This document shows, piece after piece, positions 23,284-51,865 of a stretch of DNA of 64,000 nt (position 1 is the first letter of the stretch; the number at the start of each line of letters is the position of its first letter). A model generated the notes under the pieces. That model was not told the origin of the DNA. It was given only the letters and a program-made list of their open reading frames with translations, and ran no database searches. The position numbers and the translations under genes are program-made. The stretch is from Asterias amurensis (taxonomy: Eukaryota > Echinodermata > Asteroidea > Forcipulatida > Asteriidae): assembly GCF_032118995.1 (NCBI RefSeq), contig NC_092660.1, positions 19,950,501 through 20,014,500 on the forward strand, given 5' to 3'.

Positions 23284-24102
23284 CTATTTAGTACAGCTTG
23301 CCGTATTGAAATACAAAACCAAGTAACAAACACCAGCAGATAATACAACAGTATATAATGTGAATAAAACAAACACTGCCAAGTATGCCCCAACACCCCA
23401 TCTCCCACCAAGAAAGGTTGACATGTCCATACCACCAAGAAACGAGTTTCCCAAGCGTGCAGAACTTTTCACCCTTCGAGACAACTTCTCAACACTCAAG
23501 CCAGACCCGGAGGCCTCGTTCAGGCGTGTCTCCACTGCAGATTCAATTTCTCTGGCGTTACTACAGAATGAGAGTAGCTCATAACACATTGTCTTGGCAA
23601 ACTCAACACAGTCATCCAGAAGGACTTTGTAGCGCTTAGGAGAAGCCCTCAGAATTGAAAGCTGGAGTCCGTGAATTGGTAACTGTTTGAATCTATGAAT
23701 GTAGAATGACCTCTCAATACGTCCCTTTATCTCACTAAAATATTTCATCTTGTGGTGAATCTTGTACATCCTCTGCTCCACCGACTCGAAGCACAGCTCA
23801 GTCTCCCAAACGAACAACTGGCTGGGGATAGCGAATGGGTCATCTGGGACGTCTTTGAAGACGCCCAATGGGTCGCTACTAGGCGTAGGGGCGTTTGCTG
23901 GAACGCACATCACGAACGCGTGCCAGTCCTTGTTCACGCAAATGAAGACATCGTAGTCGGTTCTCTCTCCCGTGGAGAGAAGTTTCTTGATGGAGTTGGT
24001 ATCATTGTTCCTGTGGGCGATCACTGTTTCTGTGTTAAGATCACCAACGTTGTTGACGTGGTAGGCCAATGGCTCGAACGAACGAAGGCTTCCTTCCACC
24101 AT
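23284..24102 (-). CDS. Uncharacterised single-pass membrane protein, copy 1
   Basis: An intronless frame of 272 codons, MVEGSLRSFEPLAYHVNNVG to FNTASCTK. The family is not recognised. An N-terminal globular part includes DYDVFICVNKDWHAFVMCV and LLDDCVEFAKTMCYELLSFC. It is followed by a charged segment and one long hydrophobic segment near the C-terminus (AYLAVFVLFTLYTVVLSAGV). There is no signal peptide, so it may be tail-anchored. The spacing of a strand ending in W-H-x-F and a later helix D-C-x-x-F-A resembles the His then Cys order of LRAT/PPPDE-type permuted papain-like folds; this is speculation. The second copy at 28338-29156 differs at 7 residues. Frame preservation in both argues that they are real. 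Confidence 0.7.
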   Translation of the reverse strand: MVEGSLRSFEPLAYHVNNVGDLNTETVIAHRNNDTNSIKKLLSTGERTDYDVFICVNKDWHAFVMCVPANAPTPSSDPLGVFKDVPDDPFAIPSQLFVWETELCFESVEQRMYKIHHKMKYFSEIKGRIERSFYIHRFKQLPIHGLQLSILRASPKRYKVLLDDCVEFAKTMCYELLSFCSNAREIESAVETRLNEASGSGLSVEKLSRRVKSSARLGNSFLGGMDMSTFLGGRWGVGAYLAVFVLFTLYTVVLSAGVCYLVLYFNTASCTK

Positions 24103-24577
24103 TTCCGGGCTGTTATTTTTTACTAGCTATCCACTGCAATGCAGTTTTAATAAGTGAAAATAACATACACCTGTGCCATAACACAGTATTACATTATGAT
24201 CACAATTCATTCACCATTTGCAAACGGTCACACCTGATTAAGTGTGAATAAATGCACGAATGTTAACCATGCAGTGTGTGTGTGAATAATGTCATTTATT
24301 GAGAAGGCATTATGCACGCGAACTTTGAGCTCCCATAGGCCTACGTCATTTTTCTGAGAACAAAGCAAGTCGGGGAATTCCAGTTTACTTGAGCCATTTC
24401 GAAATCATGATTAAACTACATATAATATATATTATTATTGTTCACATTTTGTCAATACTGGTATAGTTCTTTAACAATAAATGTTGTGCACGAGTGTAGG
24501 CTATAGACTTGATTTCAAGAAGTCTGAGATCGCGCTCATTATTTTATCTGCATCAGCCACGCGAAAACCCTCCCACA

Positions 24578-28337: not shown

Positions 28338-29156
28338 CTATTTGGTACGGCTGGCCGTATTGAAATACAAAAACAAGTAATGAACACCAGCAGATATTAC
28401 AACATTATATAATGTGAATAAAACAAACACTGCCAAGTATGCCCCAACACCCCATCTCCCACCAAGAAAGGTCGACATGTCCATGCCACCAAGAAATGAG
28501 TTTCCCAAGCGTGCAGAACTTTTCACCCTTCGAGACAACTTCTCAACACTCAAGCCAGACCCGGAGGCCTCGTTCAGGCGTGTCTCCACTGCAGATTCAA
28601 TTTCTCTGGCGTTACTACAGAATGAGAGTAGCTCATAACACATTGTCTTGGCAAACTCAACACAGTCATCGAGAAGGACTTTGTAGCGTCTAGGAGAAGC
28701 CCTCAGAATTGAAAGCTGGAGTCCGTGAATTGTTAACTGTTTGAATCTATGAATGTAGAATGACCTCTCAATACGTCCCTTTATCTCACTAAAATATTTC
28801 ATCTTGTGGTGAATCTTGTACATCCTCTGCTCCACCGACTCGAAGCACAGCTCAGTCTCCCAAACGAACAACTGGCTGGGGATAGCGAATGGGTCATCTG
28901 GGACGTCTTTGAAGACGCCCAATGGGTCGCTACTAGGCGTAGGGGCGTTTGCTGGAACGCACATCACGAACGCGTGCCAGTCCTTGTTCACGCAAATGAA
29001 GACATCGTAGTCGGTTCTCTCTCCCGTGGAGAGAAGTTTCTTGATGGAGTTGGTATCATTGTTCCTGTGGGCGATCACTGTTTCTGTGTTCAGATCACCA
29101 ACGTTGTTGACGTGGTAGGCCAATGGCTCGAACGAACGAAGGCTTCCTTCCACCAT
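28338..29156 (-). CDS. Uncharacterised single-pass membrane protein, copy 2
   Basis: An intact 272-codon twin of 23284-24102 on the same strand, about 5 kb away. Seven residue differences are seen: P to T and K to R in the middle, and five in the last 24 residues (T/N, L/I, C/H, V/F, C/R) within and after the membrane segment. The globular part with DWHAFVMC and DDCVEFAKTMC is identical. The 5' flank (CCCGGAA before ATG) is shared. Function unknown. Confidence 0.7.
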   Translation of the reverse strand: MVEGSLRSFEPLAYHVNNVGDLNTETVIAHRNNDTNSIKKLLSTGERTDYDVFICVNKDWHAFVMCVPANAPTPSSDPLGVFKDVPDDPFAIPSQLFVWETELCFESVEQRMYKIHHKMKYFSEIKGRIERSFYIHRFKQLTIHGLQLSILRASPRRYKVLLDDCVEFAKTMCYELLSFCSNAREIESAVETRLNEASGSGLSVEKLSRRVKSSARLGNSFLGGMDMSTFLGGRWGVGAYLAVFVLFTLYNVVISAGVHYLFLYFNTASRTK

Positions 29157-29633
29157 TTCCGGGCTGTTATTTTTTACTATCTATCCACTGCAATGCGGTT
29201 TTAATAAGTGAAAATAACATACACCTGTGCCATAACACAGTATTACATTATGATCACAATTCATTCACCATTTGCAAACGGTCACACCTGATTAGTTGTG
29301 AATAAATGCACGAATGTTAACCATGCAGTGTGTGTGTGAATAATGTCATTTATTGAGAAGGCATTATGCACGCGAACTTTGAGCTCCCATAGGCCTACGT
29401 CATTTTTCTGAGAACAAAGCAAGTCGGGGAATTCCAGTTTACTTGAGCCATTTCGAAATCATGATTAAACTACATATAATATATATTATTATTGTTCACA
29501 TTTTGTCAATACTGGTATAGTTCTTTAACAATAGTTGTTGTGCACGAGTGTAGGCTATAGACTTGATTTCAAGAAGTCTGAGATCGCGCTTATTATTTTA
29601 TCGGCACTCAGCCACGCGAAAACCCTCCCACAT

Positions 29634-33279: not shown

Positions 33280-33669
33280 TTAAAGGAACACGTTGCCTTG
33301 GATCGGACGAGTTGGTCAAAACAAAAGCGTTTGTAACCGTTTTTTATAAAATGCATATGGTTGGAAAGATGTTTTAAAAGTAGAATACAATGATCCACAC
33401 AAGTTTGCCTCGAAATTGCGTGGTTTTCCTTCTACTGTGCGAACTAACATGGTCGGCCATTTATGGGAGTCAAAATTTTGACCCCCATAAATGGCCGACG
33501 TGTTAGTCGACGAGGTAAAAGGCAAACCACGCAATTTCGAGGCATGTTTGTGTGGATCATTGTATTCTACTTTTACAACATCTTTCTACCCATATGCATT
33601 TTATAAAAAACGGTTACAAACGCTTTTCAAAGACCAACTCGACCGATCCAAGGCAACGTGTTCCTTTAA
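33280..33669. mobile_element. Long foldback MITE, family D, young copy
   Basis: A 390-bp palindrome: TTAAAGGAACACGTTGCCTT at the left and the exact reverse complement AAGGCAACGTGTTCCTTTAA at the right. The centre is TTATGGGAGTCAAAATTTTG then ACCCCCATAAATGGCC. Arms match almost base for base. Confidence 0.9.
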
Positions 33670-35368: not shown

Positions 35369-38300
35369 TTAGTTATCATCGAGCTCTGGACATATCTCAT
35401 AAAACTTCACACCAGGGGTGGACGACAGCCGTATGAAATTCTGAAATGATAAATATTGAAGTTATAAATTGTTTGCATTATTTCTTTCCGGTGTAATACG
35501 TATCAAATTTTCTAGAAAAAAAACTCAAAACAACCACCTGGATTCTTCAATTCCAACAAGCTGCTTAAACACAAAATGTTGCTTAACAATTTCCCGCTGA
35601 GCAGAAGTGAGCGGGATACCAGCCACATACCGTACTGTCATTAGGTGACATAGCACCTTAGCTGTTCACTTTATTCAGCTAAACAAACATTTTCAGCTAA
35701 ATAGATACATAAGCAGCCCTGAAATTTAGCTCTGGTTTTAGAAAGATAGTTCAAATCAATTCAATAAACATTTATATTACACGATGGCAGTAATAAAGTA
35801 TGCCTACTGGTTATTTACAAGTATATTATTAATGTAGGTGTGAGTAATTAACGTCACGTAATAAACAACGCAGCAAAAACACCAATCTTCAAAAAATATC
35901 GATAAATGATATTTGGAATCCACTTTACCTTTAGTGTTTTGCACACGGATAGAATTTCCACCAGTTTACGGAACTTGGGTCGATCACGAGGGGTCACATT
36001 CCAGCACCGGTGCATCAATTCATATCTTAAGTGATAAGAAAAGGTTAACATTTCATGGGTTAGCACATTTTGGTAAGGTAAAATCATCACATCCAAACCG
36101 CAAAATGAATTAGTGAACAGTGACTAAAAACAGTCCATTGGGGTAGGTGGACGTGACCTCATCGCCAGTCCATATAATTATGTACATGTTTATGTAAAAG
36201 CAATTTGACGGAGTGATGATTCCTACTTTTACTTTATGGATGACTTTTTGGATGCTAGGTGGCAGCAGACATGCCAGGTAAAATCCATTGTTCGCGGTAG
36301 TGTTTGCATCCTCAGAACTACGCAAACAATGAAAATTTGACCTGGAAAGCCGTATTCGAATCGGCTTCTACAACTACGGCTACGGCTGTTGCTAAGGGTG
36401 TTGCCAGGACGTCCTATACCTCACCGCATAATGACGCGGAAACTTAGCCGTAGCCGCCAATTCGAATACGGTCACAGTCTGCTGCCACCTAGCGTTCTAA
36501 AGTCTCCGATTGCTTGTCTTACATATCTAGTGAGCAGTAGCTGGGATTAGGCAAGCGATATCCCGACTTCAACTTCGAGACTAGCATACTAGTTGGGATA
36601 TCTGAGTACGGTGTTGCACCTTTAAGGGAAACACACAAAATGTTGGATTTAATAAAACAATGCTTCATGAGAAACTTAAACCCAATTTGGTCGACGAAGT
36701 TGCGAGAGAATTATGGAAGAAAAAACACTATGGTCGCACTAGTTGCGTGCATGCTTTCAGATGCCTTGGATTCGAGACTGTTGACGTGTCCAAACGTCAT
36801 AGTGACCATTGACCTGTTGTGTTTATGACAATACATATGTCCCAACATGGCGATGTTCAGTTAACTTCAATGTGTGTCTTTGTCCAGTCATTTGTGTCAT
36901 CAAACTGAGTAAGTCCAACCAATTATTATTACAGAAACCACAGCTGAGGTATCGAATTCAATTCAAATATTTTAGTGAGAAAACTACTTCTTTCTCAAAA
37001 ACAACGTTTCTTCACAGGGAGAGCCGTTTATCACAATTTTTGATACTATCAAAGGCTCTCCATTGCTCAGCGCAACCAAGTAAGTTTAAATGCTAACAAT
37101 TATATTTGAGTAATTACCAATAGTGTCCAGTGCTTTTAACACACATTACTACGGGTTGTACTGACCCAGAAATGGGTTTGACCCCGAGGGACCCGGATGT
37201 ATTTAAACCCGGATGTAAGTTTAGCAGCTTACCAAGAGTTACAATTTCCCACAGAAGAACCCCAAAGGACCACCTAATGGAGCAAATGAGATAAAAAACA
37301 ATACGATCAAAAACACGTGGTTTTTAACATTTCATAGATCTTTGAACAAGTTGTTTCCAATTTAACACAACCTTTATTAGAACCTTGATAAATTCATGTA
37401 TTTCTTGACTGACTAAATTGCAGCAATCGCAGTACGTCATTGTCAACGTCAATTTTTGAGAATCCTCAGATACTATTTTTGACGTTGACAGTGCAAATAA
37501 CCAGTATATTAAGTCCGAAATACTTTAATGGTGGATCGTATTATTAGAAACTTCACAAACTTGATTTCATTGAAGTATATCGTCTGCTCAGAACTCGGTT
37601 CTTAGTGTATGGATTTCGTAAGGGTGCATAATATTTTTTTCCTGGTTGGGGTTTATAGATCAAGAGTGGTCTTCAAAGTATTATTTTGTTTGGCAAAAAT
37701 GCGTTTCCAAGAAAAAATAACAGTATTTAATTTTTGTGTATTTAAAAAAATGCATATGGCCTATGCATTTAATGACCCTTTGAGCGTTACGCAGGTCTGT
37801 ATAAAATTGCTATAATGCCGTTATAGACCGACTAAACAGAATAGTTAGTCTTCGTTCAAGTTGTTTACGCGGTTTCGTTATGCACGAGATATGCACATTG
37901 AATCGCTTGGATATAGTTATAGCATTAATGGTAAATAAATTGTACTTACACGTCGGTCATTGATGAGTGTTTAGCAGTGTTTAGTGCCTCCAGTGGCTTC
38001 CAGCGAAATGACACTCTTTTCTGAAACTAATTCGGCAAAATTATTTATTAGTTAAAGTTTTTCAAAGGTTAATAAAACTAGGGAGCCTAAAATGTGAATC
38101 CACAAATGATAATAATAAACATAATATAGGTTTTATCGACCAATTTAAAACAAAATCCATTCAGTTTAACACTTCATTTTTGTCAGTTTCCTGTGTTGCA
38201 CAACACAATATAGATAGAAATAGTTACCGTTGTTGTATCCAGGTAGGTGTTTTCGACACGTGACAAACCAAAGTCAGAGATTTTGGCAACCAGATTTCCA

Positions 38301-41300
38301 TCGAGAAGGATATTCCTTGCCGCCAAATCTTGATGAACTATCTGTGGAATAATATTACCAACTTTATTTTTTATAGCGCCTAAGAAAGTCCCAATAAACG
38401 AGTGATATCTCCAAGGTAATGATAGGCCTATCAAGTATTCAGTTTAATTCAACTTCAAATTTATTTTCATACAAAATGAAAACTATATAAATAAATATAA
38501 TTTAATTGGCTTTAATTTATGTTTATAATTTAATTGGTTATAATTTTCCCGCCTTTTTCTGGATCCTTCCCTTAATCCCATTCCCCTTTTTATATATAAA
38601 TTGATATGTATTTGTTTGTATTTGATTGTTTGTACATGTTTATGCCTCTGAAGAAGGTCCGGTTTGGATCGAAAGCTAAGGACATCTCTCCTACTCATAA
38701 TAAATATAATATGTATAATAAAAGTAAACAGAATACATGAACTTTAGTCAATTGAATTAACAAAAGGATGCAGAAGCGAAATTATTAACAGTGGTGTGTG
38801 TGGAGGCATCGTCTCTGAAGACTAGGTATGTGGCGAGATGCCTTGGACAGACTTGACACATAAAAAAACAAAGAACAAGCACACGGAAATTTGGATCAAG
38901 ATATAACCTAAGCATGAAGACTTACGGATAAGCTAGAAAGGTACGTAAGCCTATTGAAGAAAATGTCTGAAATTATATCAAGTTATAAATTGCCAATCTA
39001 TGCCGAGCTTAATGTATTGTAAACATTCCTTCCAAATCTAATGAGAAATACAGAACGTTGTCGTTAGTAAAAGAAAGAAAGTTGGGCGTGTGATGATACA
39101 CGGCTCAAATACAGTCTGAATGCAAAATTTCAATTTATATACTACAACGTACAATGGAGACTGACTGCATATCATTGTTTAAATTTCATAACTCATATGC
39201 AAAAACAACACCAACGTTGAACACATTTGTTGGAGTCTCATAGTCAGAAATGCCATTACCTTATTCATAGCAAGATGCTGCATTCCTTTGGCCACATCCA
39301 GAGCAAATGTAAGCAGCGTCTCAGAAGATGGGAAAGTTCCTGTGGGCGCTAAGCGGGACCGTCTCAAGTGAGATCGGAGGTTACCGTATGGCATAAACTC
39401 AAGAGCTACGCACAAGTCATCTGTTCAGAGTTTGGGAAGAATACAAACATGTCTTCAAGTGCTTCAACATCGCAAGTTACTGTAATATCTTTAAAAAGTG
39501 TGTTCTTTATTTGGTCTGTTTTGAAGTGTCGAGACCGAGCAGTTAAAGACACTGGACTCAAAAAGTAACTCGAGTCAATATTCACCCTAAAATAAATATT
39601 GATATCGCCTGTATTTAAAATCGACCGGGTTATTCTGAATTTGACCGTCACTCACCATCATGTGTGCAGACTCCAAGGATGTTGACCAAGTTGGGATGAT
39701 TGCCAATCCGAGTCATGGACCCGAATGCCGTCATAAATTTATCATTATCTGTTGGTGATGCAGTTGCTGTAGTTAAATCAAATCATAATGGAGACAGAAA
39801 GTTTACTCGGAACACAGCCCAAAACAATACGTTGTTGCTAAACCTGCATAATAAAAGGCTATTGGTGGCGCACTATATTTTGAACAAAATTTGCACCTTA
39901 AGTACTGACACTTTTATCCCGATGTGTGAGAAGAAGTGGGGATATCATCCTAGCTATACACACACTGCGACTGAGGGGGAACCACAGACAATGAAGTAAT
40001 TTGTTGTGGTGCCCAGATCGGCAAGACCTGTACACGGCTATATACAGACTTGGATAACTTTACTGAGATTGCCTCGGACAGCGACCTATATGCTAAACGG
40101 GTCATTATAGTGCATGCCTTTCATTAGAGTGCATGCCTTTGAATAATATAGACACAGTATACATTATAATTATATCCAGATTATGTTCAGCCGCAGGTGC
40201 ACTTCCTATCTCCCGACGAGCTTAATTCATGCAGATAAAAAATGGCGCCCTTTATATAGTTATAATAATAAAATATAAAAAACATTTATATAAGCGACAA
40301 ATCCATTGCAAAAATGCTCCCAGGCGCTGAACAATATTAATAATAAGAAAAACTATAGCATTTTAAACCATGAAAAATAAAATCATGAAAAAGTCTAAAA
40401 CAAGATCCCACAAATGTAAGCAGTCGATCACAATTACAGAAAACAAAATATATAAAACCTGAAACGGTTACCAAAAGATCCACTAAAGATAGTATTTAAA
40501 ACGAAAACACTTGGTTTGTTTTCGATAGCTTTATATGCATCGTTAGACTAGTTTACATGTTGACTTATTAAAAGAGAACTTCCTTATTGTAGTGAACTAT
40601 AGTTTTCCTTTAGCTTAGTTAACATATAAGAGTATGTACGGAAAGCATAGTTTGGTATATTCCTATTGTTTAAAGGTATGGATAAACCAGTTTGTAGGCC
40701 TACGTGCTTTAAGTTTGGATGTACTGGTCAATTAGTCAAGTTTGCTCGTTGTTTACCTTTGAGTCTGCTAATGGTAGCTTCGTGAACTGTCCCGTTTTTA
40801 GTCACAGATCCACCAGTCACTTCCCCAAAGTTACCAATTGAAAGTATATCGGTACCAAAGTGCACAAACTCCCTATCCACGCAATGCTGCATGGCCCACG
40901 AGGGTATACCAACGACAACGTTTGTATATGGGTTGGCTGTGTCACGGTGAGCAAGGATTGGCGAAGGGACGTGCCGAGATTGATCACGCATATCCGTGTT
41001 AGAAACCGTAGCCTGTTTAGTATGAAAGAAACGGGCAACGAACACTGTTTAGTTGTTGCTAATTTTTAAAATTTGTGTTTATTTCTTTCGCTCTTGCTTT
41101 GAAACTATAAAGCTAATTATTCAACAACAAAAACAAAAAAGGACAAGAACAACAATAACAAGAACAAGGACAAGAACAACAACGACGACGACGACAATGA
41201 CAATGACAATGACAACATCAATATGAACAACAACAATAACATCAACAACAACAATAACAACAACAACAACGGCAGCAGCAATAAAAACAACACCAATACA

Positions 41301-44300
41301 TCAATACCACAAAACAAACAATCCACAAATAATGCCATTGTATAGCACTCAACAAGAAACAAGATAGTAAAGATTACAGATAGCCTATACAAGTATATAC
41401 GATTTCACGTGACATAATCACGTGATGCAAAACAAAAACGCAAAGAAAATATTTAAAATTGTACAACAAATTTGTTTTCTGTATGAAAACAAATCTGAAA
41501 TGAAAGAATACACAAAGCTCCCGTTCATACCTAAAAAGGCTTATAATAAACAAACGAACATCTTTTCTGAAGGTAAAACGAGTCATGCAACTTACCGATG
41601 ATGTTTTGCCACGGCGATGGCAACATTCATTGATTAACGCCAATAATAAAACAATCACAAAGATACCAGAAACACTGCTGACGACTATCAACAGGATGTA
41701 AGGGTTCGGTTCAACTGTTGTTGTAAAACATAAAAAGGTTTTGTAAAGTGAAAGAGATTTCCACAATAATGTTTAGCCTACAGAGTGGTCAAAGTCAGAG
41801 AAGAACTTATAAAACACAACATGGCGCTGAATTAAAAAGTTCAAAGACACACATTCAATTGTTGTTCTTCCATTAAACTAAACTTTTCAAAAAGTTGCGC
41901 TTAATTTCACTACTCGATTACGACACTCACCCTATTCTTAATTTGTTTTTGTTTTTTATTCAATTTCTTAATTCTGGTTGTGAAGCCAAAAAATCGAACT
42001 TAAATACTGTAATAGCATAGAGCTATGTGGTTGCAAGTATGTCTATTAGATTTAATCATGCACTCTTGTACAATCTTGAACTCGGCTGAATTATTTAACT
42101 GAATTGTGAAAACATAATAATGTTGGACTTTATTCTTTATTTTTCCTTCTATGGATACCTAAGACAAAAGGAACAACAATACGTCTCCACAGGGAAAAGG
42201 AGCAATTTTCAACAAGGAATTCTGTCTGCAACCATTTGAACGATCTTTGAAGGTATGAAAAGGAGCAATTTTCAACAAGGAGTTCTGTCTGCAAATCATT
42301 TCAAATTATCTTTGAAGGTATGGTACAGGGAAACATTGGGTAAGAAGTTTCCTCAGGGATCCAAAAATAGAAAACTTAAGATGATACTTACCTCCTGTAT
42401 CGATACACCAACCCGTATATTTATCGCATGTATTGGATCCCCGACATCTGCATGTCTGTGTACATCCTGCACCATACATTCCATTAAGACATTCTATTCA
42501 AGAGATATAAGTAAAGCAAATAAATATATCCAATTAAACTATTTCTGTGATGTCACTCTATTGATGAAAGTGTAAGTCATGTTTACGACCCACACTCCAG
42601 ATTATTTACGAATCTATTAATTGTAGAATTGTTACAACTAAAGTACAAACTTCTGTGTTGTTGTATATGCCCTTTTTGCCTTAATGTATTTATTGGGATT
42701 TAGGAGACATACGCCTCTTGACGATAGATATATATTTTTAACTTTTATGCTCCCCTGGGCACCCCACTGTTGTTTTACTTCGTTTTCTTAAATATTTGTA
42801 ATGTATGTACATGTGCTTGTAAATGTGCTTGCCCGAATAAATATTATTATTATTATTAGTAGTAGTAGTAGTTCTACTTGAAAATGACTATCTTTCCAAA
42901 TTGAAATATTATGAATCACACTTAAGAAACGTATGAACCTAATTCTATGACACAGATTTGACTTGATCAAACTGACTCCCCGTACCTACTACACATAGTG
43001 TTAGATTCTTACGTCACAATCTCTACCTGAAAATCTAGAGATGCAGCTGATCCATCAGTTTTTTGTTAAAGACACGGCAGTGTATATGTTAGCCTAAACA
43101 GTGTCTTAGTAAACGAGCAATGGAGAGCTTCAGTAGTATAACATCGTGAGGAACGGCTCCCTCTGAAGTAACGTATATTTTTTTAGCACACTCAAATTTT
43201 GAACAGATTTTAGCCTGAAGCCTATAATTAGGCATCTGGAAGCACACAAACTTGTGTAACAGTTTTTTATATACTATTCTCTTCCCATTTCGATGACCAA
43301 TTGAGTAAAAATTTTCTCAGAGTTGGTTATTTTATGCATATGTTGGGATATACCAATTGAGAATACTGGTCTCAGAGAATGACCAATGGTCCCAGTGCCT
43401 TTAAACCAAACTGAGTCCCTGACAACTACAGGGCTAAATCTTACCTGTATCACAGTCTCTGCCTGAGTATCCAGAGATGCAGCTGGATCCATAGGGATCT
43501 GGCAAACCAAACTGACTACCCGTGCAGCTAGTGATGGATTCTTACCTGTTTTACAGTCTCTGCCTGAATATCCATGGAGATGCAGCTGGATCCACCAAAG
43601 TGTCTCCCTGTTCAACTATAGATGGTACTATATTCTTACCTGTATCACAGTCTCTGCCTGAATATCTAGAGATGCAGCTGGATCCATAGGGATCTGGCAA
43701 ACCAAACTGACTACCCGTGCGGCTAGTGATGGATTCTTACCTGTATCACAGTCTCTCCATGAATATCCATGGATCCACCAAAGTGTCTCCCTGTTCAACT
43801 ATAGATGGTATTATAACACCCCATTGCAAGTATTCTGCCTGCTCATTGGTTTAGAGCGCGTCACATGACATGTCTTAGTTTTGCTAGACGACGGCCGTGT
43901 GATGATGCGTCGGTTTGCCATGCGCTAGTCCGAAGACTAGCACATGGCGCCGTGCGCTAGTCCGACAGACGAGCACATGGCGTGCAGTACCCAGACGTCC
44001 GTTGCGTGAACGAGGATGATAAATTAATAGTCTGTAACCATTTCAGATTGCACGACACTACATGCAACACAGTAAGTAAAAGTGTTTGCAATCTGTATTC
44101 GCGGCGTCCGTGGATTTCAGCATTCAGGTCTGTAACTTAATAATAATAGTACAGTATTTAGAAATGTTTGGGGTGTTATAATACAAATATTGACTGTCTT
44201 TACTCGTGCGATGGTTAGAAACTATGACTCTCTCGGTGATCCCCGGAGCGTTCTATTTTCCCCTCGGCTTCGCCTCGGGAAAATAGAACGCTCCGGGGAT

Positions 44301-47300
44301 CACCTCGGGAGTCATAGTTTTAACCATAGCACTCGAAGCAGTCAATATCTGTATACTATAGTCTTACATGTATCACAGTCTCTTCCTGAATATCCAGAGA
44401 TGCAGCTGGATCCATAGGGATCAGGCAAACCAAACTGACTACCCGTGCAGCAAGTGATAGATTCTTACCTATGTTACAGTCTCTGCCTGAATATCCAGAG
44501 ATGCAGCTGGATCCATAGGGATCTGGCAAGCTGAACTGTGTCCCGGTACAATTCTCAACAGTGTGGTTTGGTCCGCATTCAAATTCACAATTCCAGCCGA
44601 ATTTATGTTTACCGCAAGCTTCAGAAGAACAAAAAATCAAACACAACCTTCAACGCTTTGGAGTAACTTTCTGTTAGGTACATATGACACAATAGCCCAA
44701 CTTCGCAGGGCTGCAGTAAAAAAATATGCTAAGCACGACATAATATGCTTACAATAATAAGGTTATTAGCCAAACCATTTCACAAGCACCATTAATTTGT
44801 TGTGACTGCCTGCTCACTTCTACTTTAATACCAGAAACCGTTAAGGAATATTTTCTACTGAAGCAGCCTATAGGTCTTTAAAGGTAGTTGAAGAAAGTTT
44901 AAGTCTTGCTTAGATTATTTTTGAAGCGATGTTTCACATGAAGACATACATTTACATACTTGATGTTTTTTTTTTAAATCTTAATTCAACGAAAGTTAAA
45001 TTCCACAGTGAATTATAGATTTGTTTATAGCTCACCATTGGAGCAGTTTGTCCCGCTGAATCCTGGTGCACAGATGCATTGACCTGTTTTATCATCACAC
45101 ACTCCTCCATTGTAGCATGGATCGCAATCATCTGTACAGCTCGGTGGACCCCATCTACCAGCCGAACAAACTGGAAACAACAATTATAACATTGAATGCT
45201 TTTGAGTTTGCCGAACATAACACTACCATACTTCTATACACTATCTAGAAGACGATACAATCCTAGCTCCTCTCAGATAATTAAACAGTCACTACGGAAC
45301 ATACAACCTGTCAGATTGAACTAAATGGGTGTAGACAAAGCCAGAAACCAGACCCTGTAGTATAGAGATACCCATATTACAATCCTTTTGTTTCATACTT
45401 TTTCAAATTTCAATTTGGTCCGGGGTCGTCCGAGAGCGTCAGGGTTATCCTCTTTCTTTATTTACGTGTCTGTCCCTTGTACTGTATGTTTGATAAATCT
45501 TGTTATCTTCTCCACTTTTTGAGGTTTTGAGGAAATAAATAAATAATAATAAATTACTATCACCAACTAGTTCACACGGAACCTCCTAGCCAAGATCCCT
45601 AGAGGATGTTTTATGGAGGAAACCAAAACCAGTACCAAGGAACTTACCTCTAACTATAACTCTGATCAAACTGGCAGGTTCATTTGGTCCCGTTAGCCTC
45701 GCCCCGTAAACATCACCATGTTGAACCTCATAGGAGGCTATTTTTATTTTGTTCCCAAAAAACAGTGACGTGTTACTCCTGAACCGAAACACTTGCGAAT
45801 CGACTTCGTTATCATCGGTCGATAGGATTGGCAGTGTTACGTCTTCTCCAGCGTTGACTATAAGCGTTCCGGAGTTAAAGTAGAATCCCTCGAGCTTTCC
45901 TCTCCCTGGGGAGAATTCAAAAACATAAACGATTCCCAAAATAATAAACAATGCAAATGTGTTCGGAATAATAATGTTTACTTAAGAATGCATCGGTACG
46001 ATGGTAAATAAAATCGTTGATTGTCTGTGAAACCATTTGATTGTTTTAATCCTATATAGATTTAGACGTATACATAAAACTAATGTTTTTGAGATATCGC
46101 CGAAAATTTCGGAGCAATTTTTATGTCCATCAGATCCGCTGTAGTCAATATTTCTTTGTTGAACCACAAGTAAAGTTACATAAAAGAAGGCATAAGAGCA
46201 GGTACAAACTTACTTGTGTGAGTGATACTGTACACAGCAGGTGTAAAAGAGTTCACATTGTTTCGATCGTTACAAGAATACAACCCACTGGTGCCATACG
46301 TTGCGTTATTGGATACCGTCAGAGCACGTCTGTTATTGGATTGACTTGTTTCACCAACCAGGGTTCCTGACGATTGATCTGTTGTTCCGTTGGAAGTAAA
46401 TCGTATTGAGAATTGAATGCCGAGATTCAGCGGTCTACTGTATGGCGGTGTTTGTGTGCTTCTAAAACAGGTGAACGTCGTAGTGCCAGAAGCGTTTATG
46501 TCGTACAACATGGGGGAAGCCATCATCAAGTGTAGCACCTCACCTAAATCAGAGACATTAATATTTCTTTTAAAACGAAATAAAATGTTAACAGGCAACA
46601 ATATGTACATGAATGCTTTCCGTGTCACGGCGTGACCTTTTTTCGCAGACGACCTGTTGTTGATTGACCTGTTGTTGATTAGAATAATCTTTATTCCGTA
46701 TATAAAAGAACTATTGACTGAAGGCAGTGGACAATATTGGTAATTACTCAAAATATTTATCATAAAACCTTTCTTGATTAATACGAGTAAAGGGGAGAGA
46801 TTCATAGTATAAAACATTATGAGAAACAGCTCCCTCTGAAGTGACGTATAGTTTTCGAGAAGGAGTAATTTTCGAGAACTCAGGAGGTCTTGAAATCAGG
46901 CACGAATCACACAACTTCGTGTGACAATGGTGCGACAAGGGTGTTTTTTTTTCTTTGATTAATATCTCGCAACTTCGACGACCGATTGAGCTCAAATTTT
47001 CACATGTTTGTTAATTTATACATGAGATACACCAACTGTGAAGACCAGTCTTTGACAATTACCAACAGTGTCTTTAATAATCGGGACATAGTTAAAATTA
47101 CAGGCCCTCGGTGATGTCAAAACCATAGCTATGACCTCAGCTTCGCTTCGGGCATGGTTTAGACATCACATTGGGCCTATAATTCTAACTGTGTGCCCCT
47201 CATAGCAGTCAATAATTCCATACTATTACCACTTCTGATGTCGTCCTTACGTGTGCAAGCACGTAAGGAAAAGTTACAGAGAAAGTATGATAAGCAGTTA

Positions 47301-48512
47301 ACGTGCAAAGTTGTGTTTAAACACAAAATGTGTGTGAGACGTTTGATCGGTTTTCTGCCTTCATGTCAGGGAGGTCAAGTTTCGCATCAAAACAAGAAAC
47401 GCATCTCGGGCATAGTAGCACTGCCAATGCTACAGGGTGTTTTTGTCAGAAGATTGCTGCTTTACGGCCTTTATTACTGGACAAAGTACTCTGTGTACCT
47501 GGAAGAAGAAGAGATATATAGGCCGCGCCATTTATCGGGTCACATGACGCAATTAGAACAAACACAAACTTTAAAGGCCCACAAAATATACACAAAAATG
47601 TGCTGAAGTTAGTATGAAACAAATAATAACGAATGAATCAGATACAACAAAATTACAAATGTGAAACAAGAACGAGGAATGAAAAAAAAGCAACGCTGTG
47701 AACTTCAGGTAAAACTTTAAGTTTAGTTCATCGTAGAAGTAAATTTTTGAGAGTGCAAAAGTATAAATACACAAAGGGTTTGTACCTTGGGGATGCACCA
47801 CACAGTTTATGTCAAAATTCATGCGCCAAGTATTATCATGTTTTGTAAACCCACAGATACTTTGGGTGTCAAGCAATTAAATCCAAGCCTTTGGGGTTCT
47901 GTGGTTCAACTTTAAAGGAGACGTGGTGGATAAATTTAGAAATTAGGCTCGAAAGTTTGTCATATTTGGTTTGGGAAATTGACAAGTGTTTCACAAATTG
48001 ACGGCAGCAAATCGTTTTTTGGGGGCAAGTAGTTTTTTTTTTTTTTTTATAGGGTTTTTCTCTGGGGTAATTAGCAAAAATTCCAAAATTGAAAAAAAAA
48101 ATTGAAAATAATGTTTGCTTGGTTTTCAAGAGGTTGAGATACTTCGTAAATATTTGTTATATAAGTATTAAGTATTTTCGAACACTTAGCATTTACCTAA
48201 CGTTGGTTTATATCTATTTGGGTAAACTTTCTGTATCATGCCACCACTTTTTCACTTATTTTTTACACAAACAAATATCTCATTTGAGTAAATTATGTCA
48301 TCGTATTTCATGAGAAAGTGGTGGCAGGATACGGAAATGTTTATTTAGTGTGGTACAAGTGTGGTTTAAGCAAATTGGGTTTAAGAACTTCATAATGATT
48401 CATGTATCTTAAACTTACCTTTGGGCGCGTTTAATTCAGCCATCACGATCAGAAAAGCAAAATAGCAATCCACCATACCACTCCAAGTGTGAACCCGGAA
48501 ATGACTTCCCAT
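35369..48512 (-). CDS. TEK: Tie-like receptor with degenerate tyrosine kinase domain
   Basis: Sixteen exons join in phase to 2,208 nt (735 aa): 48419-48512, 46214-46543, 45648-45905, 45036-45170, 44469-44618, 42392-42493, 41596-41714, 40757-41012, 39656-39766, 39260-39420, 38228-38341, 37950-38020, 37233-37273, 36523-36619, 35929-36025 and 35369-35440 (stop). Order: signal peptide, Ig (Cys pair FTCF/YSCN), Ig without cysteines, three EGF-like exons, membrane helix (about 362-383), kinase-like domain (about 445-720). [18 protein letters not shown] and VYGARL...IRVIVR match Tie2. Kinase departures: SIGNFG for the glycine loop (454-459), Ser478 for the ATP lysine, no alphaC Glu, HQD (575-577) for HRD, PLE for APE. 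DFG (595-597) and [16 protein letters not shown] are kept. The fibronectin III domains of vertebrate Tie are not found. Likely a cell-surface pseudokinase. The last exon is the least certain. Confidence 0.85.
36353..36472. mobile_element. Small foldback element, family E
   Basis: AAGCCGTATTCGAATCGGCT pairs with AGCCGCCAATTCGAATACGG. CTACGGCTACGGCT lies in the left arm. It has no coding capacity. Confidence 0.6.
36634..37138 (+). mobile_element. Family A repeat with a 160-bp insertion
   Basis: Outer parts ACCCAATTTGGTCGACGAAG and TACCAATAGTGTCCAGTGCT belong to family A. Bases 36780-36940 (CAAACGTCATAGTGACCATT and on) are foreign to it. It lies in a receptor intron between kinase exons. Confidence 0.6.
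38600..38720 (+). mobile_element. Retroelement 3' tail remnant
   Basis: GAAGAAGGTCCGGTTTGGAT followed by CGAAAGCTAAGGACATC and an AT-rich end resembles the 3' region of Penelope-type or similar retroelements. Comparable phrases are at 49825-49880 and 52525-52560. No coding part is here. Confidence 0.35.
41115..41345. repeat. AAC/GAC/AATGAC microsatellite
   Basis: An A/C-rich run with ACAACAACAAC, GACGACGACGAC and AATGACAATGACAATGAC subsections in the intron after the membrane exon. The minus-strand reading is a Leu/Ser-rich spurious frame. Confidence 0.85.
41596..41714 (-). CDS. TEK: Tie-like exon 7, transmembrane helix
   Basis: It encodes VEPNPY, a hydrophobic run [20 protein letters not shown], then [15 protein letters not shown] stop-transfer Arg/Lys cluster and a Cys pair follow the helix. 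Only about six residues separate the last EGF exon from the membrane, so there is no room for fibronectin III domains. Confidence 0.75.
42392..45170 (-). CDS. TEK: Tie-like exons 4-6, EGF-like domains
   Basis: 45036-45170: [11 protein letters not shown] then [20 protein letters not shown]. 44469-44618: [16 protein letters not shown] then [18 protein letters not shown]. 42392-42493: [17 protein letters not shown] then [12 protein letters not shown]. The order and the LPDPYG motif match the three EGF domains of Tie1/Tie2. All are phase 1-1, so exon duplication or loss would keep the frame. The 3' half of the middle exon is repeated in tandem in the following intron. Confidence 0.8.
42660..42872 (+). 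mobile_element. LINE 3' end with ATT tail
   Basis: GTGCTTGCCCGAATAAATATTATTATTATTATT plus an AGT run is of the type that closes CR1-like LINEs, here without any coding sequence. Another such end (GAGGAAATAAATAAATAATAATAA) lies at 45420-45555. Confidence 0.45.
43066..43403 (-). mobile_element. Family A repeat, minus orientation
   Basis: Starts TTAAAGACACGGCAGTG and contains GGAACGGCTCCCTCTGAAGT; ends CAGTGCCTTTAAA. It has cut into the EGF-fragment array. Confidence 0.65.
43811..44353. mobile_element. TA-flanked composite foldback element, copy 2
   Basis: Starts TTATAACACCCCATTGCAAG and ends CAATATCTGTA, with TA on both sides. The host unit of the EGF array without insertion reads ATAGATGGTACTATATTC, and the interrupted unit reads ATAGATGGTA ... 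TACTATAGTC. The neighbouring array unit therefore gives the empty site, and a two-base TA duplication is directly visible. Confidence 0.85.
45648..46543 (-). CDS. TEK: Tie-like exons 2-3, Ig-like domains
   Basis: Exon 46214-46543 has the Ig cysteines (TTTFTCFRS and GLYSCNDRN) with several N-x-S/T sites. Exon 45648-45905 has Ig strands but no cysteines and ends [17 protein letters not shown], corresponding to VYSARYIGG and the LIVRR that runs into the first EGF of Tie2. Loss of the Cys pair in the Ig next to the EGFs is a Tie feature. Both exons are phase 1-1. Confidence 0.75.
46711..47075 (-). mobile_element. Family A repeat, minus orientation
   Basis: Begins AAGGCAGTGGACAATATTGG and ends AATTACCAACAGTGTC. 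It is followed at 47079-47230 by a diverged palindrome related to the right half of the TA-flanked element (CAGTCAATAATTCC). Confidence 0.7.
48230..48345. mobile_element. Small foldback element, family G
   Basis: GCCACCACTTTTTCAC pairs with GAGAAAGTGGTGGC. The same arms bound 54745-54870 (GCGCCACCACTTTTTCAC, GAAAAAGTGGTGGC). Confidence 0.6.
48419..48512 (-). CDS. TEK: Tie-like exon 1, signal peptide
   Basis: It encodes [20 protein letters not shown] and [11 protein letters not shown], then a phase 1 donor GTAAGTTT. The hydrophobic core is short (about 10-12 residues) but fits a signal peptide. The phase matches the Ig exon at 46543. The start codon is the only ATG near the exon's 5' side in this frame. 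No TATA box is evident upstream. Confidence 0.6.
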
Positions 48513-48929
48513 ACTTATCGAAATTTTATCAGTCGATCAAGTACACTTTACAAACATACTTCTGTCCAAATATTGTGATTTTCGGTATAAAAAAAAACTA
48601 CTTGAAAATCTGAACAAAGTATAGCTAGTGCCGAATCTGGGTGCAATTTGTGGCTATTTGTTTTAATCTGATTTGAGAAGTTGTAAAAGCAATGCCAATT
48701 TTATATTACGGTATATTGCTGTACTGTGAAGTTGGTAATAAGAACGGCTTACTAACCGTATAGGTGGATTGTGGAGAGAATAGCCCAGAAATATCTGAAA
48801 ACGCATTGACCCCAACGGGCTATTCATTGGTGCTAGTCAAGCGTTCATAACTATGGCATGTGGGTGTTGGAACTATTTAGATTCAGTTAATCAACAGCAT
48901 TTATTATGGCCTATTCAGGTTCGGTTTCT

Positions 48930-49600
48930 TTCATTTATTAGGTCTTCCTTCAACATGTATAAAATACAAGCATGTGTGAAAACTTGAACTAAATTGGTTT
49001 TCGAAGTTGCGAGAGAATAACGGAAGAAAAACACCTTTGTCGCACAATGTGTGCTTTATTAAGATTCAGTCAGTCAACAACATTTATTAGGCCTACGGCA
49101 TATTCAGATTCGGTTTCTATCATTAACTAGGCCTCACTTCACCATATTATTATTATGTATAAAATAACAAGCCTGTGAAAACTAGAACTCAATTGGTCTT
49201 GGAAGTTGCGAGGAAAAAACACCTTTGTCGCTTTGTCGCTTGTGTGCTTTATTTAGAATCAGTCAATCAAATTAGGCATGGCCTATTCAGATTCGGTTTC
49301 TATCATTTATTAGGTCTCACCTCAACATATTATGTTGTATAAAATAACAAGCCTCTGAAAACTAGAACTAATTGGTCTTCGAAGTTGCGAGAGATTAATA
49401 GAAGAAAAATTATTATGTGCTTTAATTTAAATATTTTAGTGAGAAATTACTTCTTTCTCAAAAACTACGTTATTTTAGAGGGAGCCTTTTCCCACAATGT
49501 TTTATATCAACAGCTTTCCGTAGTGTTCGCAACCAAGTAAGTTTTTGTGCTAACAATATTTTTGAATAATTACATGTACTGAAATACTTCTCTCTGGGGG
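48930..49600 (+). mobile_element. Family A repeat with tandemly repeated left part
   Basis: The stretch TTCGGTTTCT(T/A)TCATT ... AGTTGCGAGAG recurs three times (48920, 49110, 49285), each about 180 bp. One right part follows (TACTTCTTTCTCAAAAACTA ... GTTCGCAACCAAGTAAG). This is a small internal tandem amplification. Confidence 0.55.
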
Positions 49601-50336
49601 TTTCGTAGGTAACTAGTGTAAGTCTATTCCTCCGAGGGACTTTGAAGAGGGACCTATTATATAGGCCCATATTCTATATAGTCACTCACTAGTTACCGAA
49701 TTATGCCAGTCATTATGTGTTTTATAACACCTCGGTCTTAAATGTGAAATAAAAACAGAAATCTGGGAATCTGCTGGATGTGGACGTGCGGTCTCGACGT
49801 TTTTAATATAACTCTGCTCTTCAGCTTTCTCCTGATGAAGACGAGCGGTGTCTACCACCCGAAACGTAGCGACCATGCACGCAGCTCTTTTAAGAGCAAC
49901 ACAAAATAGATTTACACATTTTACAAATTCTTCCCAGTTCTTTCTTGGTGGTTGATCTTATATAAATAGGCCTACTGTTTCGTGACATCCACATTCTCTA
50001 TGAGTATACACCAATTCAGGCGCGCAGTGTTGAGCACCGTGTGCCATTGCTGAGGTGTACATGTGCTTAGTTTTGTGCACAGAGGCATGAGGAAATCATG
50101 TTCCTTTTCACTCTTTGAACATGAAATGTTTTCCTCAACGACTATCACATTTTCCTTAACAGGACATCATGATATACTAATGAAGATCACTGACTACAAA
50201 ATTTGCAACTATAGAAACCGAATCATCTTGAAAACGGTGCTTGTCTTAGGAGAGTTAGGGGGAAAAGACTCGAAAACTGCATAAACTAGTCACTAAAATG
50301 AGATTTTGTCAGAATTTCAGTATTTTCTTTGTGCTT

Positions 50337-50374
<38 letters not shown>

Positions 50375-51865
50375 TAGTCAATCGTCATATCATGCAGCCA
50401 TGTCAGAGAAATCGCATAGATTGTCGGGAAAGACATTAAATTTTCATAAAAAGAGAAAACAAACATGATTTCCTTATGTTTCTGTGCACAAAACTAGGCA
50501 CATGTTACCCCAGCAATGGCCGTGGTGCGCGCCTGAGTGTTTAGTGCCAAGATCCCACCTCCCCTGCGTTCATGGTTTCATCTAAGGGGTCCTCCTCATA
50601 TACAGCTTTGAATTAAGCACTAGTGATCATCATACACGGAGACAGTCTCTGCTGAAATTTTGTTGATGTAGTAAGGCCTAGTATACTCCCAACGATATCA
50701 CTGCGCCATTAAAAACAAAAAGGTTTGGAACCGGAATCTGAGCCGAGGTTTGGCTTTTCTTTGTCGCACTTTGCCTTTAATATTGTTGAATTGTTTTTAT
50801 TTTCGTATATTTCTATCACTTAATATTCCCAACAGCCCCTTTTTCATGGTAATAAACTACGTTAATCTAAAAAATAACCACATTACCACAATAATGGTTC
50901 CGGGAGTGTGAATACGCGCGAGACTTGCAGCTAGTCCTTTGTTGATAAACAAACCGCCTTGGTTGGCATGGTCGGCCGAATGTTAGTAAAACACTCAACC
51001 GTAAAAACAGATGTTTCAACAAAATTCAACATTTTCTGCAAATGTTCAATTAAATAAAATACCTCTCATGATAAGTTGCTTTGTTTTAAACAACATCAAC
51101 AAATTTTGTTACATTGTTACCAAAAATAGCGATCTATTCTTGATTTGCACTTATGGCTTTCTATAGTTTTCCAATCTGGGTTGCCAAAACTCGGGCTGTG
51201 ACGTTGCAAAAGAAAGGTCTATAGAGAGGTTTCGCGTGACGTCACAATCGTCAGATATTGACACCCGTCGCCATGTTGAGTACTATTATCAGCTGGCCTG
51301 TATTTAACGCAAAAAAAAAAAAAAAAAAAAAAAGCAGTTCGTGTGCTCAGTTAAACCACGGTTAAATGTAAATCGTAAGCCAGGAGACCGTGAATATTTT
51401 CTTCGCCAACCATCGATTATTTTGCACCAAGCAGGGCCTAGCAAAGGCTGGGAAAACAATCTGAACCCGTTGAAACAGCCGCGGAGGACGACAAAGCATG
51501 GCTTAAATTAAAATGATAAAACATCGGAATTGGTTTTGGAGATCTCGACGAAAAAGAAGAAGTTGCCTAAACACAGGACAAACAGATCGTCCACGTGTCA
51601 GAAGATAAAAAAACAACAATATCAGTTTGAGGGAAACATTTGCAAGTAAACAATTTTCTTAGACAACTAGCCCTCTGGTTTCTGACATTTTTACATATAA
51701 ATGAAAGAAGGGCAACATTAAAATTAGCAATATCTTGCTTGTTTTTGTTACGGATATGTAGACACACAGGTGCAAGAGCAGCCAAGATAACATTGACTTA
51801 ATTTTTTTAGAGTCTTTTGAGATGAGTTTTGAACTTCCATATCAGTCCCAAATATTGTTTTTGTT
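49601..51865. other. Intergenic stretch with retroelement scraps
   Basis: 49790-49880 contains CTCCTGATGAAGACGAGC then CCCGAAACGTAGC, of the kind found in 3' regions of Penelope-like elements. An A-run of about 31 stands at 50341 and one of about 22 at 51311. 50050-50110 and 50455-50520 are an inverted pair (ATGAGGAAATCATG, and on the other side CATGATTTCCTTATG) around it. No gene is seen. Confidence 0.4.

Follow-up and report, generated by a model that had tools for sequence, protein, structure and literature searches.

We propose that a Tie-like gene of the sea star Asterias amurensis probably encodes a pseudokinase receptor held under constraint, serving as a co-receptor or a decoy within a sea-star expansion of Tie-like genes. 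The gene is read from the minus strand of the 64,000-nt stretch analysed here (the window; assembly GCF_032118995.1, NC_092660.1:19,950,501-20,014,500, forward strand), and its preserved frame, splice sites and family-level similarity indicate that it is protein-coding. The receptor would still bind ligand through its Ig-EGF head and would sit in receptor complexes, where the kinase fold would act without phosphotransfer. It might be a co-receptor phosphorylated by a canonical sibling, with the juxtamembrane YTNV motif and the activation-loop Tyr, both present in the protein, available as sites, or it might be a ligand-binding decoy that dampens its siblings; we regard these two options as about equal.

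Gene model and family identity

The model comprises 16 exons encoding 723 amino acids, with every join in frame and GT-AG at all 15 introns (exon 1, on which intron 1 hangs, is tentative). Exon 1 (48419..48476, minus strand, as are all the exons) would supply a signal-peptide-like start of 19 residues with a phase 1 donor; it comes from a simple scan upstream of exon 2 for an ATG, a hydrophobic core and a phase-1 donor, which returned a sole donor with two nested ATGs, and it has no homology support. Exon 2 (46214..46543), placed by frame, splice sites and phase, is Ig-like by motif (TFTC...GLYSC) and probably Ig1, and exon 3 (45648..45905) is Ig2-like, its end aligning with the end of Tie2 Ig2; neither matched Pfam. 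Alignment with the Tie2 ectodomain identifies exons 4 (45036..45170), 5 (44469..44618) and 6 (42392..42493) as EGF1, EGF2 and EGF3; scanned alone, exon 4 matches PF07974 above cut-off, and exons 5 and 6 give no Pfam match. Exon 7 (41596..41714) carries the transmembrane segment, as judged from a hydrophobic stretch and splice sites. Partial copies of exon 5 at 43431-44505, inside the gene, were considered as coding EGF exons, but their visible acceptors break the phase, and we therefore treat them as non-coding relics.

The kinase part begins at 41012, where exon 8 starts, and runs through nine exons, joined in frame, to the stop codon at 35369. The initial annotation had described nine kinase-region exons plus the last; the open frame stands, and the count is corrected to nine in all, eight and the last. 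Read directly, exon 8 (40757..41012) contains the juxtamembrane NPYTNV, the G-loop SIGNFG and the beta3 motif ATISRLK; exon 9 (39656..39766) contains alphaC with FMTAFGSM; exon 10 (39260..39420) covers the hinge to alphaE; exon 11 (38228..38341) holds the catalytic loop HQDLAARN and SDFGLS; exon 12 (37950..38020) the activation segment with RWKPLE; exon 13 (37233..37273) 13 residues; exons 14 (36523..36619) and 15 (35929..36025) the C-lobe, with GATPYSD... and YELMHRCW...; and exon 16 (35369..35440) an 11-residue tail, with a motif shared by the siblings, and the stop TAA.

The kinase domain matches Pfam PF07714 at 5.5e-75 and Tie2 at 7.8e-69. Among the best 60 of 2386 matches, the closest solved kinase per domain is Tie2 (235 bits, against 189 bits for FGFR3), which places the domain nearest to Tie; the top-listed chain is an EGFR tandem duplicate with about 145 bits per domain. 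A scan against NCBIfam returned bacterial kinase models only, far under their cut-offs. The closest solved ectodomain is likewise that of Tie2, aligned over the end of Ig2 and then EGF1-3 in order (2e-31), and the predicted head has the arrangement Ig-EGF-EGF-EGF, with Ig1 called from its motif alone. In an unrooted protein tree of 27 rows, in which Tie2 is the one vertebrate kinase and the C8 receptor the one other receptor tyrosine kinase, the window gene groups with sea-star Tie-like genes, away from human Tie2 and the C8 receptor (support 97), and falls on the side of the tandem array described below instead of joining the C13:13.30/5.06 pair (support 85). The branch leading to it, 1.09, is the longest among the sea-star Tie-like genes in that tree. 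The initial description of a Tie-like gene with a degenerate kinase and an intact frame is confirmed in each of its parts.

Residues lost and kept in the kinase domain

Five motif positions are replaced, spread over three exons; four of them (first Gly, VAIK Ala, Lys and alphaC Glu) serve to anchor ATP in the N-lobe. In exon 8 the first Gly of the G-loop is Ser (codon TCA), the beta3 Lys is Ser (AGC, in ATIS) and the VAIK Ala two residues earlier is Thr; in exon 9 the alphaC Glu is Ala (GCA, in TAFGSM); and in exon 11 the Arg of HRD is Gln (CAA, in HQD). The HxD Asp, the Asn and DFG are kept, as is a 10-residue core. Direct reading bears out the changes first reported, namely Ser for the first Gly, ATIS, TAFGSM and HQD, with DFG and the core retained. 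The further claim of a loss in PLE for APE does not hold: the conserved Glu remains, human Tie2 has AIE, and the array siblings have SLE in 20 of 20 cases. A receptor tyrosine kinase counts as a pseudokinase when at least one of the VAIK Lys, HRD Asp and DFG Asp is lost; here the Lys is lost and both Asp are kept, and the domain is predicted not to be an active tyrosine kinase of the Tie family.

Some kinases depart from the usual nucleotide site: in WNK the Lys is relocated, with its substitute in the G-loop, and HER3 has weak residual activity. Metal binding and a catalytic base could remain in the window gene too, since the HxD Asp, the Asn and the DFG Asp are all present. However, all four N-lobe positions have changed (Lys and the alphaC Glu that pairs with it, the Ala of VAIK, the first Gly), and the G-loop, SIGNFGEV, has no Lys in the place of the WNK substitute; we consider it very unlikely that the domain still works as a kinase through an atypical nucleotide site. 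We give hardly any credence to an artefact of assembly or exon choice, in which a canonical exon exists and a relic was picked instead. Exon-scale duplication does happen at this gene, as the partial exon-5 duplicates indicate, but the lesions are spread over three exons, and queries with canonical exons recover the known ones. An alternative exon 8 with a canonical beta3 Lys, named at the outset as a finding that would count against a degenerate receptor, was not found in the 64-kb window searched with these queries, where the next match to the exon-8 query has E = 0.84.

Selection on the kinase exons

The same contig carries an array of 20 tandem Tie-like genes (C13:15.34-16.28 Mb), and the genome holds about 17 further matching places. 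The search for a second, canonical Tie gene, suggested in the initial annotation, was thus strongly positive: Lys, alphaC Glu, HRD and DFG are canonical in all 20 array genes, and the array siblings likewise retain the VAIK Ala and the first Gly. Outside the array, Lys and alphaC Glu are each present at 5 of 5 loci where the relevant exon was read, and the Lys loss is shared by none of the 25 loci with the beta3 site read.

The window gene is 48.5-51.2% identical to the array siblings over 297 codons, and pairwise omega against all 20 of them is 0.27-0.36. Under the better of two trees, omega over these codons is 0.36 on the gene's own branch and 0.18 in the background; a value of 1 on the branch is rejected at p = 0.02 (1e-6 under the worse tree), the former being a modest value from a test in which several taxa are partial and dS is high. 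Placing the window gene next to C13:19.52, as the alternative tree does, costs about 22 lnL units. A dN/dS near 1 over the kinase exons had been named as the outcome that would argue for decay, and the estimate speaks against it: the frame is open and under purifying selection, as in receptor pseudokinases, and the kinase coding sequence evolved mostly under constraint. Some relaxation is likely, as omega on the branch is roughly double that of the background (p = 0.062, or 0.04 with the worse tree).

In simulations of neutral drift, 0.1% of 2000 runs were stop-free at the fitted length of 0.78 substitutions per codon, as against 9.5% at 0.2 and 3.2% at 0.3 substitutions per codon. A short recent drift is therefore allowed, and the lesions may be late events on a long, mostly constrained branch. 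On this rests the alternative that the gene was recently inactivated, having been constrained for most of its history and drifting now, with a stop or frameshift yet to come. The raised branch omega and the state of two nearby siblings are in keeping with it: C13:19.449 has NFC in place of DFG, and C13:19.566 is decaying, with stops in two exons and the HR of HRD absent. The latter, a clear pseudogene, keeps Lys and Glu, a pattern opposite to that of the window gene. Against recent inactivation, five motif positions have changed with zero stops, zero frameshifts and GT-AG at 15 introns, and either Lys codon must change at two bases to give Ser; we judge recent inactivation somewhat unlikely. 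The original proposal of selection rather than decay is hence supported by the omega, the absence of stops and the lack of the Lys loss at the 25 loci read, yet not proven.

Divergence of the head and the kinase

EGF1-2 of the window gene is 78% identical to that of the sibling C13:19.52. Synonymous divergence between the two genes is about 2.6 over exons 8-9 and 0.52 over EGF1-2, values that differ at p = 1.2e-4, with 43 of 59 synonymous sites differing in the kinase part and 23 of 62 in the head part. Simple fast evolution of the kinase relative to the head is therefore rejected as a full explanation, since the difference extends to synonymous sites. An unlikely but consistent reading is that an old dead kinase, maintained over a long time, had its Ig-EGF head exchanged or converted far later, within a fast-expanding family possibly used by coelomocytes. 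If so, a non-catalytic chassis would be kept supplied with current ligand-binding heads, tuning or jamming its active siblings.

Tie2 carries Ig, EGF and FN3 domains, three of each kind (PMC8560823). The window gene shares with it the end of Ig2 and the order of EGF1-3, and differs in its lost ATP-site residues and in that the third Ig and the three membrane-proximal FN3 domains were not found. A scan of three frames of 41700-50699 detected neither a third Ig nor FN3 before the transmembrane segment, with weak sensitivity: it recovered a single EGF exon out of three and none of the Ig exons. The FN3 peptides of the siblings gave a best match in the window of E = 0.012, on the opposite strand and outside the gene, whereas the same peptides match upstream in 14 of the 20 array stretches fetched. 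With 150 of 231 candidates scored, none of 114 genome-wide FN3 matches falls in the window, and FN3 is likewise undetected around the C13:19.44-19.60 cluster, canonical members included. FN3 absence thus seems non-specific to the dead gene, and FN3 loss is rejected as the cause of kinase decay.

Known pseudokinase receptors and the sibling genes

The ErbB and Eph families include pseudokinase receptor tyrosine kinases. To our knowledge none has been described in the Tie family, and among the papers listed by literature searches, judged by title and the start of the abstract, there is none for sea stars. The window gene, as read from its sequence, has in common with EphB6, EphA10 and HER3 that it is a receptor with an intact fold and lost catalytic residues. 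In PMC7586955, EphB6 and EphA10 are thought to stem from duplication of active paralogues, both are without canonical VAIK, HRD and DFG, the alphaC Glu of EphB6 is replaced, and a reference title has EphB6 transphosphorylated in complex with EphB1. Compared with that account, the window gene keeps HxD and DFG, its losses being confined to the HRD Arg and to the ATP site of the N-lobe, and it belongs to a different family with a different ectodomain.

Vertebrates have Tie2 (TEK) and Tie1 and the sea urchin SpTie1/2, as against the 20 array genes and some 17 further places here, and one dead receptor among so many is an unusual setting. A dead gene beside canonical siblings offers an internal control for what the loss of catalysis does as a receptor family expands. 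Proteomics of Asterias rubens coelomocytes has reported a Tie-2-like receptor (PMC13409769), which makes a possible function in the immune cells of starfish testable.

The eight introns across exons 8-16 match between the window gene and the array genes in position and phase, and the tail PE(L/F)DDN ends all 20 array siblings (17 HPE, 3 LPE). Exon 15 of the window gene is three codons shorter than in the array genes, and the donor after the alphaE exon is GC in 19 of 20 array siblings and GT in the window gene.

Gene structure and residue changes in the kinase

The Tie-like receptor gene lies on the minus strand of the window (C13:19950501-20014500), with its kinase exons (8-16) at 35369-41012. 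The part from the transmembrane exon onwards encodes 378 residues up to the stop codon, with no earlier in-frame stop and with GT-AG introns; with the upstream exons, the model comprises 723 residues in 16 exons, namely a tentative exon for a signal peptide, two Ig-like and three EGF exons, the transmembrane exon and nine exons for the juxtamembrane region, kinase and tail. The kinase matches PF07714 (5.5e-75), and among the solved structures listed its best per-domain match is Tie2 (235 bits, with FGFR3 at 189), the EGFR chain that heads the list carrying a duplicated domain, with about 145 bits for each copy. The ectodomain aligns to that of a solved Tie2 chain over positions 158-308 of the latter (2e-31), covering the end of Ig2 and then EGF1-3 in the same order. 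Pfam found EGF models only and no Ig match in the spliced ectodomain, and the two putative Ig domains are therefore assigned by motif and by the Tie2 alignment.

The changes that the initial annotation listed for the first loop glycine, the VAIK lysine, the alphaC glutamate and the HRD arginine are all present (Gly to Ser, Lys to Ser, Glu to Ala and Arg to Gln), as is the intact DFG; the VAIK alanine is also replaced, by threonine. The HRD aspartate and the catalytic-loop asparagine are kept. The reading of PLE as loss of the APE motif is not upheld, since the conserved glutamate is retained and the motif is AIE in Tie2 and SLE in 20/20 siblings of the tandem array described below. Judged by which residues are replaced and which are kept, the ATP-anchoring part of the N-lobe is damaged, but the catalytic apparatus of the C-lobe is largely spared.

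Canonical and degenerate siblings

Two genome searches, each giving a lower bound, used the window kinase (120 of 447 candidates scored) and a sibling kinase (127 of 606 scored) as queries. Both reveal a tandem array of at least 20 loci at 15.34-16.28 Mb of C13, the contig that carries the window. Counted from both search tables, at least about 17 more matching places lie outside the array (five at C13:19.45-19.57 Mb, four elsewhere on C13, three each on C6 and C11, one each on C10 and C20), most assessed by exon identity alone and with weaker C13 matches (6.48 and 8.04 Mb) and places resembling other kinase families left out. All 20 array loci have nine homologous exons, stop-free in the exon blocks used, eight introns of matching position and phase, and the first loop glycine, lysine, alphaC glutamate, HRD and DFG; the second loop glycine is changed in L039, and five genes have GNG instead of GKG. 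Where the initial annotation suggested looking for a second, canonical Tie gene, the genome thus holds 20 canonical Tie-like genes, arguably a larger finding than the window gene itself. The array members are highly alike. Their alphaE-region exon, homologous to window 39260-39420, has a GC donor in 19/20 genes, L046 having GAAAGT.

Outside the array, nine loci were read in pieces only. The lysine is kept in 5/5 loci with that exon read (C13:19.497, 19.52, 19.566 and 13.30; C11:2.60), and the alphaC glutamate likewise in 5/5 (C13:19.449, 19.52 and 19.566; C6:11.91 and 9.71). Four of the loci were read at the catalytic loop: C13:5.06 and C13:13.30 keep HRD and DFG; L048 (C13:19449250-19451080, the 19.449 locus) keeps HRD but has NFC for DFG, with all three exons read open, and is possibly a second pseudokinase; L024 (C13:19565413-19568613, the 19.566 locus) lacks the HR of HRD, has GFG for DFG and in-frame stops in two kinase exons, and is a sibling pseudogene, despite its canonical lysine and glutamate. 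Because these two loci degenerate elsewhere with lysine or glutamate kept, degeneration as such is not peculiar to the window gene; loss of the lysine and glutamate is, among the loci read.

Phylogeny and selection

An unrooted protein tree, built from 27 rows and without two loci represented by one exon each, separates the sea-star Tie-like genes, including the window gene, from human Tie2 and a receptor on C8 (support 97). The window gene falls on the array side as against the C13:13.30/5.06 pair (support 85), outside a group of the array, C6:11.91 and C13:19.449 (support 76), and its branch of 1.09 substitutions per site is the longest among the sea-star genes. The initial annotation proposed a selected, non-enzymatic receptor (decoy or scaffold), against which dN/dS near 1 over the kinase exons would have spoken. 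In a purpose-written MG94-type branch codon model (F3x4, 297 codons from 11 taxa, several of them partial), the window branch has an omega of 0.36, against 0.18 for the other branches; a value of 1 is rejected (p = 0.02), and equality with the background is not (p = 0.062). Placing the gene beside C13:19.52 gave omega 0.31 (p = 1e-6 against 1, p = 0.04 against the background), with a fit about 22 lnL units worse. Pairwise comparisons with all 20 array genes gave 48.5-51.2% identity, dS of 1.27-1.64 and omega of 0.27-0.36. When we simulated neutral drift on the 299-codon kinase (2000 runs), only 0.1% of runs stayed free of stops at the branch length fitted under omega = 1 (0.78 substitutions per codon), which makes a long history of neutral evolution unlikely. 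Neutral drift over a short recent period may have occurred, as 9.5% of runs stayed stop-free at 0.2 substitutions per codon.

Apparently different ages of head and kinase

The nearest sibling with both parts readable is C13:19.52, and the comparison is limited to this one gene and to small samples. Identity is 78% (72/92) over EGF1-2 and 45% (39/87) over kinase exons 8-9. The gap extends to synonymous sites, of which 23/62 differ in the head and 43/59 in the kinase exons (p = 1.2e-4). Head and kinase thus seem to differ in age. Mere relaxation of the kinase after a duplication would not produce such a gap, and within the limits just given we read the gene as an older kinase that received its head by recent conversion or exchange. 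Across the genome, the EGF exons of the window share 68-79% identity with full EGF exons of the C13:19.46-19.58 cluster and about 40-60% with those of the array region. The EGF2 exon also has several partial tandem copies, at 43431-44505, and partial matches of like kind occur at C13:19525606-19526180.

Possible mode of action

To judge by the anatomy of the protein, its head could plausibly bind a ligand, but catalysis by its kinase is implausible. The juxtamembrane YTNV and the activation-loop tyrosine are still present and could be substrates for an active sibling kinase. EphB6, a catalytically dead receptor that is reportedly phosphorylated by an active partner, would be a precedent for such an arrangement, and the Tie2/Tie1 heterodimers described in PMC8560823 would be one within the family. 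Alternatively, and about as probably, the product could act as a decoy.

Tie2 dimerisation is described as mediated by membrane-proximal FN domains (PMC8560823), but none was detected here, and any such complex would therefore form otherwise. No FN3 domain was found in three frames of window 41700-50699, in a weak scan that recovered one of the three EGF exons. Sibling FN3 peptides, which match 14/20 array stretches, have no match in the window gene (the best, E = 0.012, is on the other strand near 54.6 kb), and a genome-wide search, in which 150 of 231 candidates were scored, gave 114 FN3 matches, all of them outside both the window and C13:19.44-19.60 Mb. The absence may therefore be common to the window gene and this cluster, which holds canonical kinases.

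Other features of the window

Two near-identical 280-residue ORFs with a C-terminal hydrophobic segment lie about 5 kb apart (23284-24126 and 28338-29180); the first, the sole copy scanned, has no Pfam match. Nor has a Ser/Lys/Thr-rich minus-strand frame of 1101 residues (9661-12966), which contains a 105-base tandem repeat. A tRNA-like Rfam match at 16670-16741 (minus strand) is barely above threshold (30 bits against 29). At 33280-33669 lies a MITE-like inverted repeat, whose 38-nt (97%) and 127-nt (89%) arms flank a 51-nt centre, and a 1070-residue open frame at 2629-5841, with endonuclease and reverse transcriptase domains, is of the non-LTR retrotransposon type.
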